DNA of 64,000 nucleotides, taken from Candidatus Rokuibacteriota bacterium. Lineage in GTDB: Bacteria > Methylomirabilota > Methylomirabilia > Rokubacteriales > CSP1-6. The notes beneath the pieces are model-generated. The model saw only the letters and a list, made by a program, of their open reading frames with translations. It did no database searches and was not told where the DNA came from. This document shows positions 10,970-49,174 of the stretch, piece after piece (position 1 is the stretch's first letter; every line of letters starts with the position of its first letter). Both the position numbers and the translations under genes were made by a program. The stretch spans positions 1 through 64,000 of the forward strand of contig QHRU01000060.1 in NCBI GenBank assembly GCA_003220225.1, in the 5' to 3' direction.

Positions 10970-11443
10970 ATGCGCGAGACGTGGCAGGGCAGCGTCGTGT
11001 CGATCCACGTGGCGCCCGAGGCGGGCGCGCCGATGCTCGTGGTGCCCGAGGCGCGCGCGTGGCCGGGGCGCGGGCTCGAGGGCGATCGCTACGCCACCGG
11101 CCGCGGCCACTACTCGCCCCGGCCGTCCCAGGGCGGCCGCGAGATCACGCTGATCGAGACGGAAACCCTCGAGGCCCTGGGCGGCCTGGACGTCAAGCTC
11201 TCGCCCGCCGAGACGCGCCGAAACGTCGCGACCCGCGGCGTGCCGCTCAACCACCTGGTGGACCGCGTCTTCCGTGTCGGCGAGGTTCGCCTGCGCGGCA
11301 CGCGGCTCTGCGAGCCGTGCAAATACCTCGACGGGCTCACGCGCGACGGCGTCATGGCGGCGCTCGTCCACCGCGGCGGGCTGCGCGCGCAGATTCTCAG
11401 CGAGGGAGTCATCCGGGTCGGCGACGTCGTGCGGCCCGAGTAA
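10970..11443 (+). CDS. MOSC-domain protein
   Basis: 157 residues. The MOSC beta-barrel of molybdenum cofactor sulfurase C-terminal type is shown by RGLEGDRYATGRGHY (about residues 37-51), ITLIETETLEAL, PAETRRNVATRGVPLNHLVD and the conserved cysteine in LCEPCKYL (about 115-122). MOSC proteins bind or transfer sulfur and Moco-related ligands. It precedes the selenocysteine glutaredoxin by only 16 bases and so heads the operon. Confidence 0.88.
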   Translation: MRETWQGSVVSIHVAPEAGAPMLVVPEARAWPGRGLEGDRYATGRGHYSPRPSQGGREITLIETETLEALGGLDVKLSPAETRRNVATRGVPLNHLVDRVFRVGEVRLRGTRLCEPCKYLDGLTRDGVMAALVHRGGLRAQILSEGVIRVGDVVRPE

Positions 11444-11459: not shown

Positions 11460-11696
11460 ATGCCGCCGAAGGTGACGATCTACACGAACGTCGGCTGAGG
11501 GCCCTGTCACCGCGCGACAGAGTATCTGTCGCAGAAGGGCGTGCCGTTCACCGAGCGCAATGTCGGGCGAGACGCCGGCGCGCGCGAGGAGCTGATGGAG
11601 CTGGGCCTCACGTCGTTGCCGGTGATCCTCATCGGCGCGCGGCGGCTCAGCGGGTTCAACCCCCAAAAGATCGACGAGGCGCTGGCCGGCTCGTAG
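11460..11696 (+). CDS. Selenocysteine-containing glutaredoxin/NrdH-like protein (in-frame UGA)
   Basis: A 78-residue glutaredoxin-fold protein if the UGA at 11496-11498 is read as selenocysteine at residue 13: the N-terminus MPPKVTIYTNVG is followed by Sec-G-P-C-H, so the usual CxxC/CPxC redox pair becomes UxxC. The fold continues in the same frame through YLSQKGVPFTERNVG, the cis-Pro motif TSLPVILIG and the final helix FNPQKIDEALAG, ending at TAG. A strong GGAGGAG ribosome-binding site precedes the ATG. Without read-through only 12 residues would be made, yet 65 well-conserved codons follow. A perfect hairpin begins 5 nt after the UGA. It sits directly upstream of the FTR catalytic gene (gap 9 nt), implying electron transfer from FTR. 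Confidence 0.88.
11499..11520 (+). promoter_or_regulatory. Candidate bacterial SECIS hairpin in the glutaredoxin gene
   Basis: Just after the UGA, CTGTC (11504-11508) pairs perfectly with GACAG (11516-11520) around a 7-nt loop. Bacterial SECIS elements are short hairpins directly 3' of the UGA, bound by SelB, and this position and size fit. The loop does not exactly match the E. coli fdhF loop, which is normal between phyla. Confidence 0.6.
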
Positions 11697-11705
11697 GAGG
11701 ACCTG

Positions 11706-12116
11706 ATGGCCGATCCGTCGCAGGCGAACGTCGACAAGATGTGGGCGTACGCGCGCAAGTACGCCGAGAAATCCGGGACGGCGCTGCATCCGGACGTGAG
11801 CGTCACCGAGGCCGTGGTCCAGGGGCTGGCCAAGCACATCGAGGAGGTCGGGCGGCCGCTGTGCCCGTGCAACTTCTATCCGGATCCGAAGGCGGAGGCC
11901 AAGCTGCGCCGCTGGATCTGCGCGTGCGACGAGATGCAGAAATGGAAGTACTGCCACTGCCTGCTGTTCGTCACGCCGGAGGGCCTCCCCATCACCGAGT
12001 ACCTCCCCGAGGACCACGAGGGCCGGCACGCGTACGGGGTCGTCAAGGATCCGACGCCCGCCAAGGGCCGCGCCACCGCCAGGGTCCTCGAGCGGCAGCA
12101 GGCGGAGGAGACATGA
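11706..12116 (+). CDS. ftrC: Ferredoxin-thioredoxin reductase catalytic (beta) chain
   Basis: 136 residues with the complete FTR signature CPC-x16-CxC-x8-CHC: CPC at about 58-60, CAC at about 77-79 and CHC at about 88-90. These seven-cysteine patterns hold the 4Fe-4S cluster and its adjacent redox disulfide, which passes ferredoxin electrons to thioredoxin-type partners. No variable-chain gene is nearby, as in many non-photosynthetic bacteria. A GGAGGACC ribosome-binding site precedes the ATG. The selenoglutaredoxin 9 nt upstream is the obvious electron acceptor. The 3' end overlaps ridA (ATGA). Confidence 0.93.
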   Translation: MADPSQANVDKMWAYARKYAEKSGTALHPDVSVTEAVVQGLAKHIEEVGRPLCPCNFYPDPKAEAKLRRWICACDEMQKWKYCHCLLFVTPEGLPITEYLPEDHEGRHAYGVVKDPTPAKGRATARVLERQQAEET

Positions 12117-12568
12117 AGCCGGCGCATCGGCAGGAGATCCGCGTCCCCGGCATGCCGGAGCCGATCAGCCACTTCACCCACGTCGTGCGCGCGGGGCCGA
12201 TCGTGTTCGTCTCCGGCTGCGTCGCCAGCGACGAGAACGGCAAGACGGTCGGCGGCAGCGACATCGTCGCGCAGACCCGTCAGGTCCACGAGAACATCAA
12301 GCGCTGCCTCGCCGCCGCCGGCGCCACCTTCGCCGACGTCTGCAAGGTGACGGTGTTCCTCAAGAACGTGGCCGACCGCGAGAAGGTCAACACCGTCCGC
12401 AAGGAGTACTTCGGCCCGCACCGGCCGGCGAGCACCCTCGTCGAGATCTCGCGCCTCGTGCGCGACGACCTGTTGATCGAGATCGAAGCCACGGCCGTGG
12501 TGGCCGAGCGCGCGGCGCGACCCGCGCGCCGGCGCGCACAACCGACGAAGCGCGCGCGGCGACGCTGA
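12113..12568 (+). CDS. ridA: RidA (YjgF/YER057c/UK114) family protein
   Basis: 151 residues. The RidA fold is recognisable from VRAGPIVFVSGCVASDENG (about 27-45), VHENIKRCLAAAGATFADVC (about 60-80) and RPASTLVEISRLVRDDLLIEIEA (about 103-125), including the conserved Arg of the ligand site. The C-terminal 20 residues are Arg/Ala-rich and probably disordered. RidA proteins hydrolyse reactive enamine/imine intermediates. It overlaps genes on both sides (ATGA and TGATG), so it is translationally coupled in the redox operon. Confidence 0.9.
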   Translation: MKPAHRQEIRVPGMPEPISHFTHVVRAGPIVFVSGCVASDENGKTVGGSDIVAQTRQVHENIKRCLAAAGATFADVCKVTVFLKNVADREKVNTVRKEYFGPHRPASTLVEISRLVRDDLLIEIEATAVVAERAARPARRRAQPTKRARRR

Positions 12569-13404
12569 TGCCCACCGTGCGCCTGCGCGACGCCTCCGAG
12601 TATCCCGAGTCCGCGCGCCGGCTCTTCGAGCTGTCCAGGCAGTGGTTCGACTACGACTTCAAAGAGCCGCCGGCGATGAGCCGCGTGATGGCGTGGGACC
12701 CGCACTTCGGCGGCCCTCACGGCCGCGCCATGAAGCGCGCGATGGCGCCGGGGGAGTTCTCGCGCGGCGAGAAGGAGATGGTGGCGGCCGCGGTCAGCGG
12801 CGTCAACGCCTGCACCTACTGAGTGGAGGCGCACACTGCAGCCGGGAAGCTGCAGGGGATGACGGGCGACGATCGCTGGTACGAGGCCGCGTTCGTGGTG
12901 GGCATCACCAACGCGCTCAACGTGGTCGCCGACGGTCTCGGCGGCGCGCCGATGCGTCAGGTCGAGCCCGAGATGGCGCCCGCGGAGGTGCGGACGATCT
13001 TCGCCGACATCCGGGCATTCTATGGGACGGGCGGCCCGGCGGCCGACGTCCTCGGCGGCGAGATTCCGATGCCCTTCGGCCTCGTCGCTCACGACCCCGG
13101 CTATCTCGCCGACGTCTGGGCGGCGGTGAGGCGCGCGTTCAGCGAGCGACGCCTGACGCGCCGCCACAAGGAGGCGCTGGCCTTCGCGGTGTCGCTCACG
13201 ACGCGCTCGGCCTTCGGCACCGCCTTCCACCTCGCGGAGCTGCGGCGCCTCGGCGTGGGCGAGCGCGGCGTCATGGAGATCGTCGGTGTCACCCAGATGT
13301 TTTCCTCGTACACGAAGATCGCCGACACCCTCCAGCTGGCGTCGGACATGGCCGACATCGCCCCGCCGGACGCGTCCGGCGTGCCGGACCCCGGCGCGGA
13401 GTGA
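12568..13404 (+). CDS. Selenocysteine-containing AhpD-like peroxidase-related protein (in-frame UGA)
   Basis: 278 residues if UGA at 12820-12822 is decoded as selenocysteine, residue 85. The motif reads AVSGVNACTY-Sec-VEAHTAAG, so the AhpD CxxC becomes CxxU with the conserved downstream His retained. The frame continues without interruption for 193 codons, with a second CMD-like helical region at about 190-250 (HKEALAFAVSLTTRSAFGTA). This is a two-domain AhpD/peroxidase-related protein, twice the length of plain AhpD. A 7-bp hairpin follows the UGA. It overlaps ridA (TGATG) and shares the operon with selenoglutaredoxin and FTR, which could reduce it. Without Sec insertion an 84-residue stub would result. 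Confidence 0.88.
12823..12855 (+). promoter_or_regulatory. Candidate bacterial SECIS hairpin in the AhpD-like gene
   Basis: Thirteen nt after the UGA, CTGCAGC (12836-12842) pairs perfectly with GCTGCAG (12849-12855), closing a 6-nt loop CGGGAA. The location, 7-bp stem and small G-containing loop fit a SelB-recognised bacterial SECIS. Confidence 0.65.
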
Positions 13405-13413
13405 GCCGAGGCC

Positions 13414-13893
13414 GTGGCGTCCGAGCGCGAGCTCGCGATCGAGCTGTGGCGGGAGGCCTACCGCCAGCAGATGGCCGGTGACCTCGACGCCGCCATCGAG
13501 ACGTACCGGCGCTCGATCGCCACGTGCCCGACCGCCGAGGCGCACACGTTCCTCGGCTGGACCTACTCCTTTCAGGGCCGGCTCGAAGAGGCGAGGGCCG
13601 AGTGCCTGCGGGCCATCGAGGTCGACCCCGACTTCGGCAACCCGTACAACGACATCGGCGTGTACCTGATGCAGCAGGGCAAGCTCGAGGAGGCGATCCC
13701 GTGGCTGGAGCGGGCCAAACAGGCGCGCCGCTACGAGCCCCGCCAGTTCCCGTTCATGAACCTGGGCCGGATCTACCTCAAGCAGGGGCGCTGGTGGGAG
13801 GCGCTGCACCAGTTCGAGGCCGCCGTCCGCCTGGCTCCGGCCGACGCCGAGCTCGCCAAGACCCTGCATTCGCTGCGCGGCCGCCTGAACTGA
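13414..13893 (+). CDS. Tetratricopeptide repeat protein
   Basis: 159 residues made almost wholly of TPR units: AGDLDAAIETYRRSIATCPT, GRLEEARAECLRAIEVDPDF, GKLEEAIPWLERAKQ and GRWWEALHQFEAAVRLAP, with the usual Gly8/Ala20/Pro32 spacing, about four repeats. There is no signal peptide. The start is the GTG at 13414, 9 bases after the selenoprotein stop, so it ends the redox operon. TPR proteins are scaffolds; the partner is unknown. Confidence 0.85.
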   Translation: MASERELAIELWREAYRQQMAGDLDAAIETYRRSIATCPTAEAHTFLGWTYSFQGRLEEARAECLRAIEVDPDFGNPYNDIGVYLMQQGKLEEAIPWLERAKQARRYEPRQFPFMNLGRIYLKQGRWWEALHQFEAAVRLAPADAELAKTLHSLRGRLN

Positions 13894-16199: not shown

Positions 16200-16348
16200 C
16201 GGGGGCCTCGAAGGGGCCCCCAAACCCCCCACGCTCGGAGCGCCCCGGCGAAGCCGTGGCGCTCGCCCATTGAAATGGGGGGCCCCGAAATGGCCCCCCA
16301 AACCCCCCACGCTCGGAGCGCCCCGGCGAAGCCGTGGCGCTCCTCGAA
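16200..16348. repeat. R1 hairpin repeat, two tandem units (convergent gene end)
   Basis: Two units, 16200-16265 and 16277-16348. Each has a GGGGGCC...GGCCCCC hairpin, a C-rich spacer, the constant ACGCTCGG box and a long second hairpin (stem GAGCGCC/GGCGCTC, then CGGC/GCCG, loop GAA). They fill the gap between the CusF-like gene and the convergent dehalogenase. The element starts 4 bases after the CusF-like stop. Relatives lie at 22423, 28920, 43507, 45405 and 48939. Confidence 0.85.
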
Positions 16349-16362
16349 TCGCTACTTCGCGC

Positions 16363-28086: not shown

Positions 28087-28982
28087 GCCGCCTGCTCGAC
28101 CGCCTGCAGCGCCTCTTTCCCGACGCCTCGCGCACGGCCATCCGCGGCTGGCTCGCGGCCGGGCGCGTGCGGGTGGACGGCGTCGTCGTCGGTCGCGGCG
28201 ACGCCGACGTTCCCGACGCCGCGCGCGTCACCCTCGGCGCGCCGGCGCCGTCGTTTCCCTCCGCGCTGCGGCTCGTGCACGAGGACGACGATCTGCTCGT
28301 CGTCGAAAAGCCGCCCGGCCTCCTCACCATCGGCACGGCGCGGGAGCGCGAGCGAACGCTCTACCGGCTGCTCTCCGACTACGTCCGCGCGACTCCTCAC
28401 CGGCGTGCCTCGCCGTCGGCGGCGGCTCGCACGGCCACACGACTGTTCATCGTCCACCGCCTGGATCGCGAGACCTCGGGACTTCTCGTGTTCGCGAAGT
28501 CGGCCGCGGTGAAGCGCGCGCTGCAGGCGCAGTTCGCCGCGCGCGCCGTCGAGCGCGGTTACGTGGCCGTGGTGGAGGGCCGCGTGCGCGACGATGCCGG
28601 CACGCTGCGCGACCGCATCGTCGAGGACCCGACGACGCTGCGCGTGCGGGCGGGACGCGGGGGTGGCCGCGAGGCGGTCACGGAGTACCGCGTGCGCGAG
28701 CGCCGTGCCCGCTCGACCGTGCTCGAGTTGCGCCTGCGTACCGGCCGGCGCGGCCAGATCCGCGCCCAGCTCGCGGCGCTCGGCCATCCGATCGTCGGCG
28801 ATCGCGCGTTCGGCGCGACCACCGATCCGGTGCGTCGCGTCTGCCTGCACGCCGCCGTGCTCGGCTTCACCGACGCGCGCGGCCGCGCCCAGCGATTCAC
28901 GAGCGCGCCGCCTACCTCATGGGGGGCCTCGATAGGGCCCCCCAAACCCCCCGACGCTCGGCGCGTCCCGGGAAACCCGTGA
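28083..28982 (+). CDS. RluA-family pseudouridine synthase with S4 domain; probable CTG start, repeat-derived tail
   Basis: About 299 residues. An S4 RNA-binding domain (SRLLDRLQRLFPDASRTAIR, then WLAAGRVRVDG) precedes the catalytic domain with DDDLLVVEKPPGLLTIGTA and catalytic Asp in FIVHRLDRETSGLLVFAKSA. The S4 domain is coding but lies before the first usual start codon (GTG 28167). The only candidate start that includes it is CTG at 28083, which overlaps the previous stop as CTGA. The last 20 or so residues (SWGASIGPPKPPDARRVPGN) are encoded by R1 repeat sequence, which also supplies the stop. It would isomerise uridines in rRNA or tRNA. Confidence 0.82.
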   Translation: MSRLLDRLQRLFPDASRTAIRGWLAAGRVRVDGVVVGRGDADVPDAARVTLGAPAPSFPSALRLVHEDDDLLVVEKPPGLLTIGTARERERTLYRLLSDYVRATPHRRASPSAAARTATRLFIVHRLDRETSGLLVFAKSAAVKRALQAQFAARAVERGYVAVVEGRVRDDAGTLRDRIVEDPTTLRVRAGRGGGREAVTEYRVRERRARSTVLELRLRTGRRGQIRAQLAALGHPIVGDRAFGATTDPVRRVCLHAAVLGFTDARGRAQRFTSAPPTSWGASIGPPKPPDARRVPGNP

Positions 28983-29060
28983 CGCGCCTCGAATTCGTCG
29001 GGCCCCCCAAACCCCCCGACGCTCGGCGCGTCCCGGGAAACCCGTGACGCGCCTCGAATT
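28920..29060. repeat. R1 hairpin repeat, two tandem units overlapping the rluA 3' end
   Basis: Two units with hairpin stems GGCGCGTC/GACGCGCC plus CGGG/CCCG and an AAA loop (about 28956-28989 and 29026-29054). The first unit lies inside the rluA reading frame. Compared with the 16200 copies both sides of the stem differ but still pair. Confidence 0.8.
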
Positions 29061-29180
29061 CTCGCGGGACCCGACGTGGCCCCAAACTTCCCGGCGCTCG
29101 TCGATTCCGAGTGGCTCCATGCCTGCAGTCGTCACATGGGTGAAGACGATTCACGAGGTCGCATGAGGAGGTTCGCAGAA

Positions 29181-45404: not shown

Positions 45405-45479
45405 GTGGGGGGCCCCGAAATGGCCCCCCACGCCCCCCAACGCTCGTCACGCCCCGGGGGACCCGGGGCGCTCCTCGAT
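45405..45479. repeat. R1 hairpin repeat, one unit, between ettA and a convergent gene
   Basis: A GGGGGGCC/GGCCCCCC hairpin, C-rich spacer, ACGCTCG box and a GCCCCGGG/CCCGGGGC hairpin with GGA loop, ending in CTCCTCGATCA. The final TCA is the complement of the stop codon of the minus-strand spermidine-synthase-like gene, so the repeat touches that stop. Confidence 0.8.
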
Positions 45480-46135
45480 CAGGCGGTGCGGGGACGCGAG
45501 GCGTAGATCAGGACGTTTTCGCCTTCGCGGCGGACGCGTTGGGTGCGGACGGAGTCGAAGCGGCGGCGGAGCATTCGGACGAGGGAGCCGGCGTCGCCGC
45601 GGCGATGGCGGTTGACGACGAGGGTGCCGTCCGCGGCGACCAGGGGCACCAGCGCCTCCACCACGGGGCGCGAGCGCTCCATGTCGGCGTAGGCGGCGTC
45701 CTCCATCACGAAGTCGAAGCGCCGGCCGGCAGCCTGCAGCGTCGCCGCCACCGTCTCGGCGTCGCCGCAGTAGAACTCCATCGGCCCGAGGTCGGCGAGG
45801 CCGAACCAGCGGCGCGCGACGTCGAGGATCACGGGATCGCGCTCGATCGCGGTCACGAGGCGCGGCGTCGTGCAGCGGTGGACGAGGTGGGCCTGCGTGC
45901 CGCCCCCGAGGCCGACCAGCAGCACGCTCGGCTCCGGCGGGAAGCGCACGGCCGCCACGCCCTGCCACCAGTACTCGCGCTCGATCGCCGACCAGTCGCC
46001 GTCGAGCGGATAGGCCGACAGGATGGCGCCCCTGACGATCAGCCGGCGCTCCTGCCGGTAGTCCACGACGCGGATCCGGCCCGAGATCGCCGACCAGCCC
46101 GTGTGCGCCGTGCTCGAGCGCCGCGCCCGTCTCAT
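45479..46135 (-). CDS. Spermidine-synthase-like SAM-dependent methyltransferase fold protein
   Basis: 218 residues. The nucleotide-binding loop SVLLVGLGGGTQAHLVHRC (about 70-88), acidic TAIERDPVILDVARRWF and GPMEFYCGDAETVAATLQ with DFVMEDAAYADMERSRP are those of spermidine synthase-like proteins, the last corresponding to the D-A-Y motif. It lacks the N-terminal strand domain of true SpeE, so a methyltransferase or aminopropyltransferase-like role is uncertain. It follows the SDR on the minus strand by 12 bases. Confidence 0.78.
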   Translation of the reverse strand: MRRARRSSTAHTGWSAISGRIRVVDYRQERRLIVRGAILSAYPLDGDWSAIEREYWWQGVAAVRFPPEPSVLLVGLGGGTQAHLVHRCTTPRLVTAIERDPVILDVARRWFGLADLGPMEFYCGDAETVAATLQAAGRRFDFVMEDAAYADMERSRPVVEALVPLVAADGTLVVNRHRRGDAGSLVRMLRRRFDSVRTQRVRREGENVLIYASRPRTA

Positions 46136-48938: not shown

Positions 48939-49174
48939 ATCGAGGAGCGCCCCGGGTTCCCCGGGGCGTTTTCCGAGCGTTTGGGGGCGCGTGACCGAGG
49001 AGCGCCCCGGGTCCCTCAGGGCGCTTCCGAGCGTTGGGGAGCGCGCCATCGAGGAGCGCCCCGGGTTCCCCGGGGCGCTTCCGAGCGTTGGGGAGCGCGC
49101 CATCGAGGAGCGCCCCGGGTTCCCCGGGGCGCTTCCGAGCGTTGGGGGGTATGGGGGGCCCTCGTGGCCCCCCA
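48939..49174. repeat. R1 hairpin repeat, four tandem units of about 52 bp
   Basis: Four near-identical units of hairpin stem GAGCGCCCCGGG/CCCGGGGCGCTT with loop TTC (one unit has CCCTCAGGG), each followed by CCGAGCGTTGGGG, ending in a GGGGGGCC/GGCCCCCC hairpin that lies next to the stop of the phospholipase D-like gene (49176). The rest of the gap, 48809-48938, shows no gene. Confidence 0.85.

Follow-up and report, generated by a model that had tools for sequence, protein, structure and literature searches.

Ferredoxin-thioredoxin reductase (FTR) splits the two-electron reduction of a disulfide into two one-electron steps from ferredoxin, and the FTR of phototrophs normally also has a variable chain. 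Among small redox proteins, NrdH is reduced by the thioredoxin reductase TrxB and not by glutathione (GSH), and the classical AhpD of Mycobacterium tuberculosis is reduced by lipoyl proteins. Selenocysteine (Sec) versions of these enzymes are on record: Sec-containing glutaredoxin (Sec-Grx), AhpD/CMD and even FTR are listed selenoprotein families, and one Methylomirabilota genome has 63 predicted selenoproteins (PMC13188914). An FtrB double-selenoprotein (NF041072) has been reported from GOS data (PMC2398784, PMC13188914), and operons holding multiple selenoproteins are already known, as are the Prx-like/AhpD-like two-selenoprotein gene pairs and the SAO and Tso operons (PMC13188914, PMC2398784). 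In Clostridium (Alkaliphilus) oremlandii, Sec-Grx1 is proposed to reduce Sec-MsrA, a tandem use of Sec that provides a precedent for a Sec-Grx serving a Sec enzyme (PMC7642778). The literature searched, subscription papers lying outside its scope, held no description of a Sec-Grx/FTR pair or of the operon described here, which is a new arrangement of known families; the full relay drawn from it is a guess.

Layout of the locus

The window, the whole stretch of 64,000 nucleotides that was analysed, corresponds to positions 1-64000 of contig C96 in a 6.03 Mb draft genome (G000, 97.3% complete) of a soil-dwelling member of the uncultured Rokubacteria. Its FTR shares 75-95% identity with relatives in Candidatus Rokuibacteriota/Methylomirabilota genomes, which places the window in this group. 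Comparisons were drawn from a phylum set of 95 genomes (G labels) and from a separate contig search (L loci); the two overlap (e.g. L022 and G062) and are thus not independent. The features of the locus are as follows.

10970..11443, + strand: MOSC-domain protein, probable first gene (PF03473, E 1.6e-9), 16 nt 5' of the Sec-Grx gene
11460..11696, + strand: Sec-Grx, predicted 78-aa selenoprotein redoxin with motif UGPC (UGA 11496-11498; PF00462, TIGR02196/TIGR02194 matches)
11514..11532, + strand: hairpin of Sec-Grx, a bacterial SECIS element with loop GUA on an 8-bp stem
11706..12116, + strand: FTR catalytic chain, CPC-X16-CAC-X8-CHC, all Cys (PF02943, E 2.2e-23; PDB 2pvg/1dj7, E 3e-23)
12113..12568, + strand: Rid-family protein (PF01042, E 4.3e-31), with Ser at the catalytic Arg position of RidA (PAST, from alignments)
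12568..13404, + strand: Sec-AhpD, predicted 278-aa two-domain CMD/AhpD-family selenoprotein with CxxU (UGA 12820-12822; PF02627 in two stretches, AhpD-fold matches)
12836..12855, + strand: hairpin of Sec-AhpD, a bacterial SECIS element with loop CGGGAA on a 7-bp stem, rare ACT and GCA codons being frozen
13414..13893, + strand: TPR-repeat protein, probable last gene (TPR Pfam matches)

The coordinates bear out the head-to-tail order and tight spacing described in the earlier note, with a 9-nt gap between Grx and FTR, a 4-nt overlap (ATGA) between FTR and Rid and a 1-nt overlap between Rid and AhpD. The TPR gene, left unnamed there, is the last gene of the interval. As the MOSC gene ends only 16 nt upstream of Grx, the transcription unit is probably MOSC-grx-ftr-rid-ahpD-TPR; Grx is also preceded by a MOSC-like protein in L022 and L193, and AhpD is likewise followed by a TPR gene in G043 and G044 (L194, L191). 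Gene finders that stop at UGA miss the first gene of the grx-to-ahpD run and split the AhpD gene, so the unit is easily overlooked.

Elsewhere in the window, dispersed GC-rich repeats of ~60-90 nt each lie at 16212-16351, 28935-29061, 45421-45482 and 48951-49147, on both strands and some in tandem, with a core like CCCCCCAAACCCCCC.ACGCTCGG. Similar low-complexity peptides are present in other Rokubacteria loci.

Selenocysteine codons and SECIS hairpins

The in-frame UGA of Grx encodes residue 13 (U13, motif VGUGPCH) and that of AhpD residue 85 (U85, motif ACTYU), and Cys stands in both places in the aligned solved homologues (CPHC in 7c10, CLYC in 2oyo), in keeping with what had been noted of homologues before. 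All 20 Grx genes found near FTR in the contig search, comprising 17 from Rokubacteria, one from Tectomicrobia and two from Entotheonella, carry TGA as codon 13 and TGT or TGC as codon 16, and nearly all Grx relatives in the 95 phylum genomes contain exactly one TGA. Every full-length AhpD relative found has the TGA as well, at codon 85, together with TGC at codon 82. The earlier note had proposed looking for sel genes, and the genome holds the complete set: tRNA-Sec (selC; C5:19682, 69.7 bits, anticodon tca), selA (C5:17007, 584.8 bits), selB (C5:15074, 372 bits) and selD (C159:12780-13730, 335 bits), the last with one in-frame TGA that is consistent with a Sec-containing selenophosphate synthetase. 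Two of the refuting conditions named in that note, missing sel genes and homologues lacking Cys or Sec at these positions, are thereby excluded. Moreover, selA scores above cut-off in 83 of the 95 phylum genomes, which makes the use of Sec a trait of the phylum.

Each UGA is followed by a hairpin, as the earlier note had stated, and in both cases comparative conservation backs it. The loops start 23 nt (Grx) and 20 nt (AhpD) after the UGA, and both hairpins match bacterial SECIS elements in their downstream position, the G in the loop start and their conservation. The Grx stem GCGACAGA/UCUGUCGC alternates with GCGAUGGA/UCUAUCGC and GCGGUAGA/UCUAUCGC among relatives and reads GUGAAAGC/GCUUUCAC in distant ones. 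Standard pairs, among them a compensatory pair TA/CG/AT, fill 260 of the 264 cells across 33 distinct sequences, a value reached by 0 of 1000 shuffles in a procedure that ignores relatedness. At the codon level, Thr ACA is accompanied by Leu CTG, whereas sequences with Met ATG or Val GTA have Leu CTA. This exchange of Leu codons is synonymous, and there is no CTA among the 236 Leu codons in the reference genes of the window. In AhpD, codons 90-96 (ACT GCA GCC GGG AAG CTG CAG) are nearly invariant, giving the highest modal-codon frequency of any seven-codon stretch among 26 relatives (0.99, the mean elsewhere being 0.75), although they include ACT and GCA, which in the same reference genes account for 1 of 119 Thr and 6 of 308 Ala codons. 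These paired substitutions in Grx and frozen rare codons in AhpD indicate that both hairpins are under selection at the RNA level. Folding energies were unremarkable against shuffles for this GC content (z -1.4 for Grx and -0.8 for AhpD) and were not counted as evidence, leaving the decision to the comparative data; an Rfam scan of the window returned zero matches and hence lends the SECIS elements no support.

Under the standard code both UGAs would terminate translation, and the downstream parts might be pseudogene remnants or separate ORFs. A UGA that is invariant in dozens of genomes, the SECIS conservation and the complete Sec machinery make this extremely improbable, and the reading as plain stops was rejected. 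Judged by sequence comparison, the same evidence identifies both UGAs as Sec codons and both genes as genuine selenoprotein genes, in agreement with the earlier note.

In addition, the genome has a second Grx-like domain with an in-frame TGA (~726-926 of L205, G000:C144:24500-26200). The domain (MKARLYTRPGUSSCAKTKELL...) runs in frame into a DinB-like region, and the gene resembles a UXX-star-type fusion selenoprotein.

Two separable modules and their electron supply

Rokubacteria that have FTR keep it linked to Sec-Grx. Of the 95 phylum genomes, 20 have FTR, and each of these also has a close Sec-Grx (E < 1e-28), compared to one of the 75 FTR-less genomes (G094). The two genes are direct neighbours on one contig in 19 of these 20, and both lie at contig ends in G043. 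In the contig search, Grx is directly upstream of FTR in 17/17 Rokubacteria loci, whereas in two Entotheonella genomes (L058, L067) the genes are convergent and ~100 nt apart, so the linkage is independent of any one operon layout. Beyond these groups, no such Grx was present within the fetched flanks of FTR relatives from Nitrospira, Chloroflexota, Gemmatimonadota and other taxa, and FTR-Grx as a general pair was rejected on that ground; a search of viral contigs for Grx gave one remote and irrelevant match (29%).

All six Cys residues and the His of the FTR motif align with the solved FTR (2pvg/1dj7; reference pattern CPC-X16-CPC-X8-CHC). The FTR of the window scores 39.7 bits against NF041072 (cut-off 160), and a candidate selenoprotein FTR was rejected, all of these codons being Cys codons. 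At the locus, no variable-chain gene lies beside it. Sec-Grx combines a thioredoxin-type (U)GPC motif with a Grx/NrdH fold and an NrdH-like tail, (S/T)GFNP, scoring 73 bits against TIGR02196 (cut-off 88.6) and 53 bits against TIGR02194 (cut-off 85.8). A search for gshB with one family model (TIGR01380) found no match in the 97% complete draft genome of the window, which counts against a GSH-fed Grx. Taken together, the UGPC motif, the NrdH-like tail and the lack of a gshB match suggest that Sec-Grx is best read as a thioredoxin-like redoxin reduced by ferredoxin/FTR and not by glutathione, and that TrxB probably reduces it too. An 88-aa ferredoxin gene (L202:395-661) is present in the genome, not linked to the operon. 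In one Rokubacteria genome, inspection by eye placed an adrenodoxin-reductase/FprA-like ferredoxin-NADP reductase (L030:2-1414) ~1.1 kb upstream of Sec-grx-ftr, a possible ferredoxin link.

The second module consists of Rid and Sec-AhpD. The Rid protein, called RidA in the earlier note, has Ser in place of the catalytic Arg105 of the imine deaminase RidA, and all Rids near Sec-AhpD read PAST where RidA has PAR. This Arg is needed for imine hydrolysis, and ~10% of RidA proteins have Ser in its place (PMC4433059). The AhpD-like protein with CxxU, as it had been described, does belong to the CMD/AhpD family and keeps the Glu-Cys-Sec-His set, with E70, C82, U85 and H89 of the N-terminal domain invariant in 25 sequences; we take this register to be that of the M. 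tuberculosis AhpD site, which puts Sec at the peroxidatic position. CxxC is absent from the second domain, and the protein falls below the NCBIfam cut-offs of NF041238 and TIGR01926. The AlphaFold model reaches a moderate pLDDT of 77, dropping below 50 over residues 89-99.

Relatives show that these are two separable modules, Sec-Grx with FTR and Rid with Sec-AhpD. They adjoin each other in G000, G061, G062 and G085 and in part in G043, where contigs end; only three genera, that of the window and two others, have them in a single operon. For G044 the gene order is unsettled: Grx-FTR-Rid sits close to one contig end and AhpD close to that of another contig, the latter gene preceded by an amidohydrolase-like ORF. 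Most FTR loci have Sec-Grx-FTR without Rid or AhpD, and in most genera Sec-AhpD is found apart from Sec-Grx-FTR, also in genomes without FTR, and so cannot depend on this pair everywhere.

We propose, with a probability of roughly 0.5, that Sec-Grx is reduced by FTR, and probably by TrxB, and re-reduces Sec-AhpD where the operon is extended. Ferredoxin electrons would enter the FTR catalytic chain one at a time via the 4Fe-4S cluster to reduce the Se-S bond of oxidised Sec-Grx, for which TrxB/NADPH is probably an additional reductant. In the genus of the window and the two others, the unit is extended by Rid-Sec-AhpD; Sec85 may attack a peroxide or similar oxidant to form a C82-U85 Se-S bond, most likely re-reduced by Sec-Grx in these three genera. 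We infer this coupling from operon sharing only, with Sec-AhpD as a plausible client.

The modules may also be independent and have no more in common than a promoter in three genera. Sec-Grx-FTR would then be a general ferredoxin-linked redoxin pair serving other clients, and Rid-Sec-AhpD a detoxification pair of its own that receives electrons from thioredoxin or lipoyl proteins. This is a tentative alternative of some weight, given that most FTR loci lack Rid and AhpD, and Rid-Sec-AhpD stands without Grx-FTR beside it in several genera (L167, L169, L174-L177), in another gene order and with Rids only ~37% identical to that of the window. Likewise, Sec-AhpD lies ~3-8 kb from selA in G056, G059 and G069. 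Against independence stand the single, tightly spaced and overlapping transcription unit of G000, G061, G062 and G085, interrupted by contig ends in G043, and the fact that both clients are Sec-dependent thiol enzymes. The electron source can be questioned too: Sec-Grx might mainly be an NADPH/TrxB redoxin, with FTR as a back-up input or running in reverse. The gene trxB is directly upstream of Sec-grx in eight Rokubacteria loci (trxB-Sec-grx-ftr, genus g6), so ferredoxin need not be the sole source; full-score TrxB occurs in 9/9 genomes tested, and the Grx tail resembles that of the TrxB-dependent NrdH. Nevertheless, the invariant neighbour is FTR and not trxB, which in the genome of the window is on another contig (C108) with the same upstream neighbours as in the trxB-Sec-grx-ftr loci, and we regard a mainly TrxB-driven redoxin as unlikely.

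That Sec-AhpD is a peroxidase is unproven, as its fold family includes other thiol chemistries. It may instead be another CMD-fold thiol/selenol enzyme, e.g. a reductive dehalogenase or disulfide reductase: CxxU is kept only in the N-terminal domain, Sec is known in deiodinases, and a fold search returned CMD/AhpD-family structures only, with a putative CMD protein closest and the debrominase Bmp8 among them. Since the sequence and fold matches are mostly peroxidase-related or AhpD proteins and the AhpD Glu-Cys-Cys-His set is retained, this reading appears quite improbable.

The relay that the earlier note had drawn as one system, from ferredoxin through FTR and Sec-Grx to Sec-AhpD, is therefore upheld in its conserved Sec-Grx/FTR pair but not as a whole, with Rid-Sec-AhpD as a module of its own that joins the pair in just three genera. 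A dedicated selenol relay of this kind, with NADPH/TrxB as alternative input and acting as a glutathione-free selenoperoxidase system in Rokubacteria, is somewhat doubtful; if true, it would make ferredoxin a further direct source of electrons for a Sec redoxin and explain how glutathione-less bacteria run Sec enzymes. The Sec-Grx/FTR pair and the trxB-Sec-grx-ftr cluster together offer a small expressible system for testing the specificity of FTR toward selenenyl-sulfide.

As a separate observation, the three loci with Sec-AhpD near selA/selB (G056:C22, G059:C235 and G069:C147; L185, L183 and L184) belong to three genera, and at least two of them have a MoaD/ThiS-like gene beside Sec-AhpD. 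The sel locus of the window's genome, on C5, has no Sec-AhpD.

Comparison with described systems

Sec-Grx has its top solved matches in PDB 7c10/7c12, for Grx1 of C. oremlandii, which is natively a Sec-Grx. There, Grx1 is proposed to reduce a Sec-containing repair enzyme, MsrA (PMC7642778), a tandem use of Sec that the two systems would share. They differ in that Grx1 has glutathione as its stated reductant, the motif UPxC and no FTR, whereas the Sec-Grx of the window has UGPC, is linked to FTR/TrxB and comes from a genome in which no glutathione synthetase was found.

Compared to the ferredoxin-thioredoxin reductase system and the FTR-like proteins of non-phototrophs (e.g. M. acetivorans, 4tpu), the FTR of the window shares all cluster and redox cysteines, but its second motif is CAC instead of CPC, no variable chain is adjacent, and its partner is a Sec redoxin and not a Cys thioredoxin. 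The FtrB double-selenoprotein likewise ties the FTR family to the use of Sec; there Sec is inside FTR, whereas here FTR is all-Cys and its neighbour holds the Sec. Sec-AhpD has the family and Sec position of the listed AhpD-like/CMD-like selenoproteins with CxxU (PMC13188914), as a two-domain version found phylum-wide in Rokubacteria. The Prx-like/AhpD-like pairs and the SAO and Tso operons share with the locus the presence of several selenoprotein genes per operon, but they have other gene content, with neither FTR nor Grx named there.
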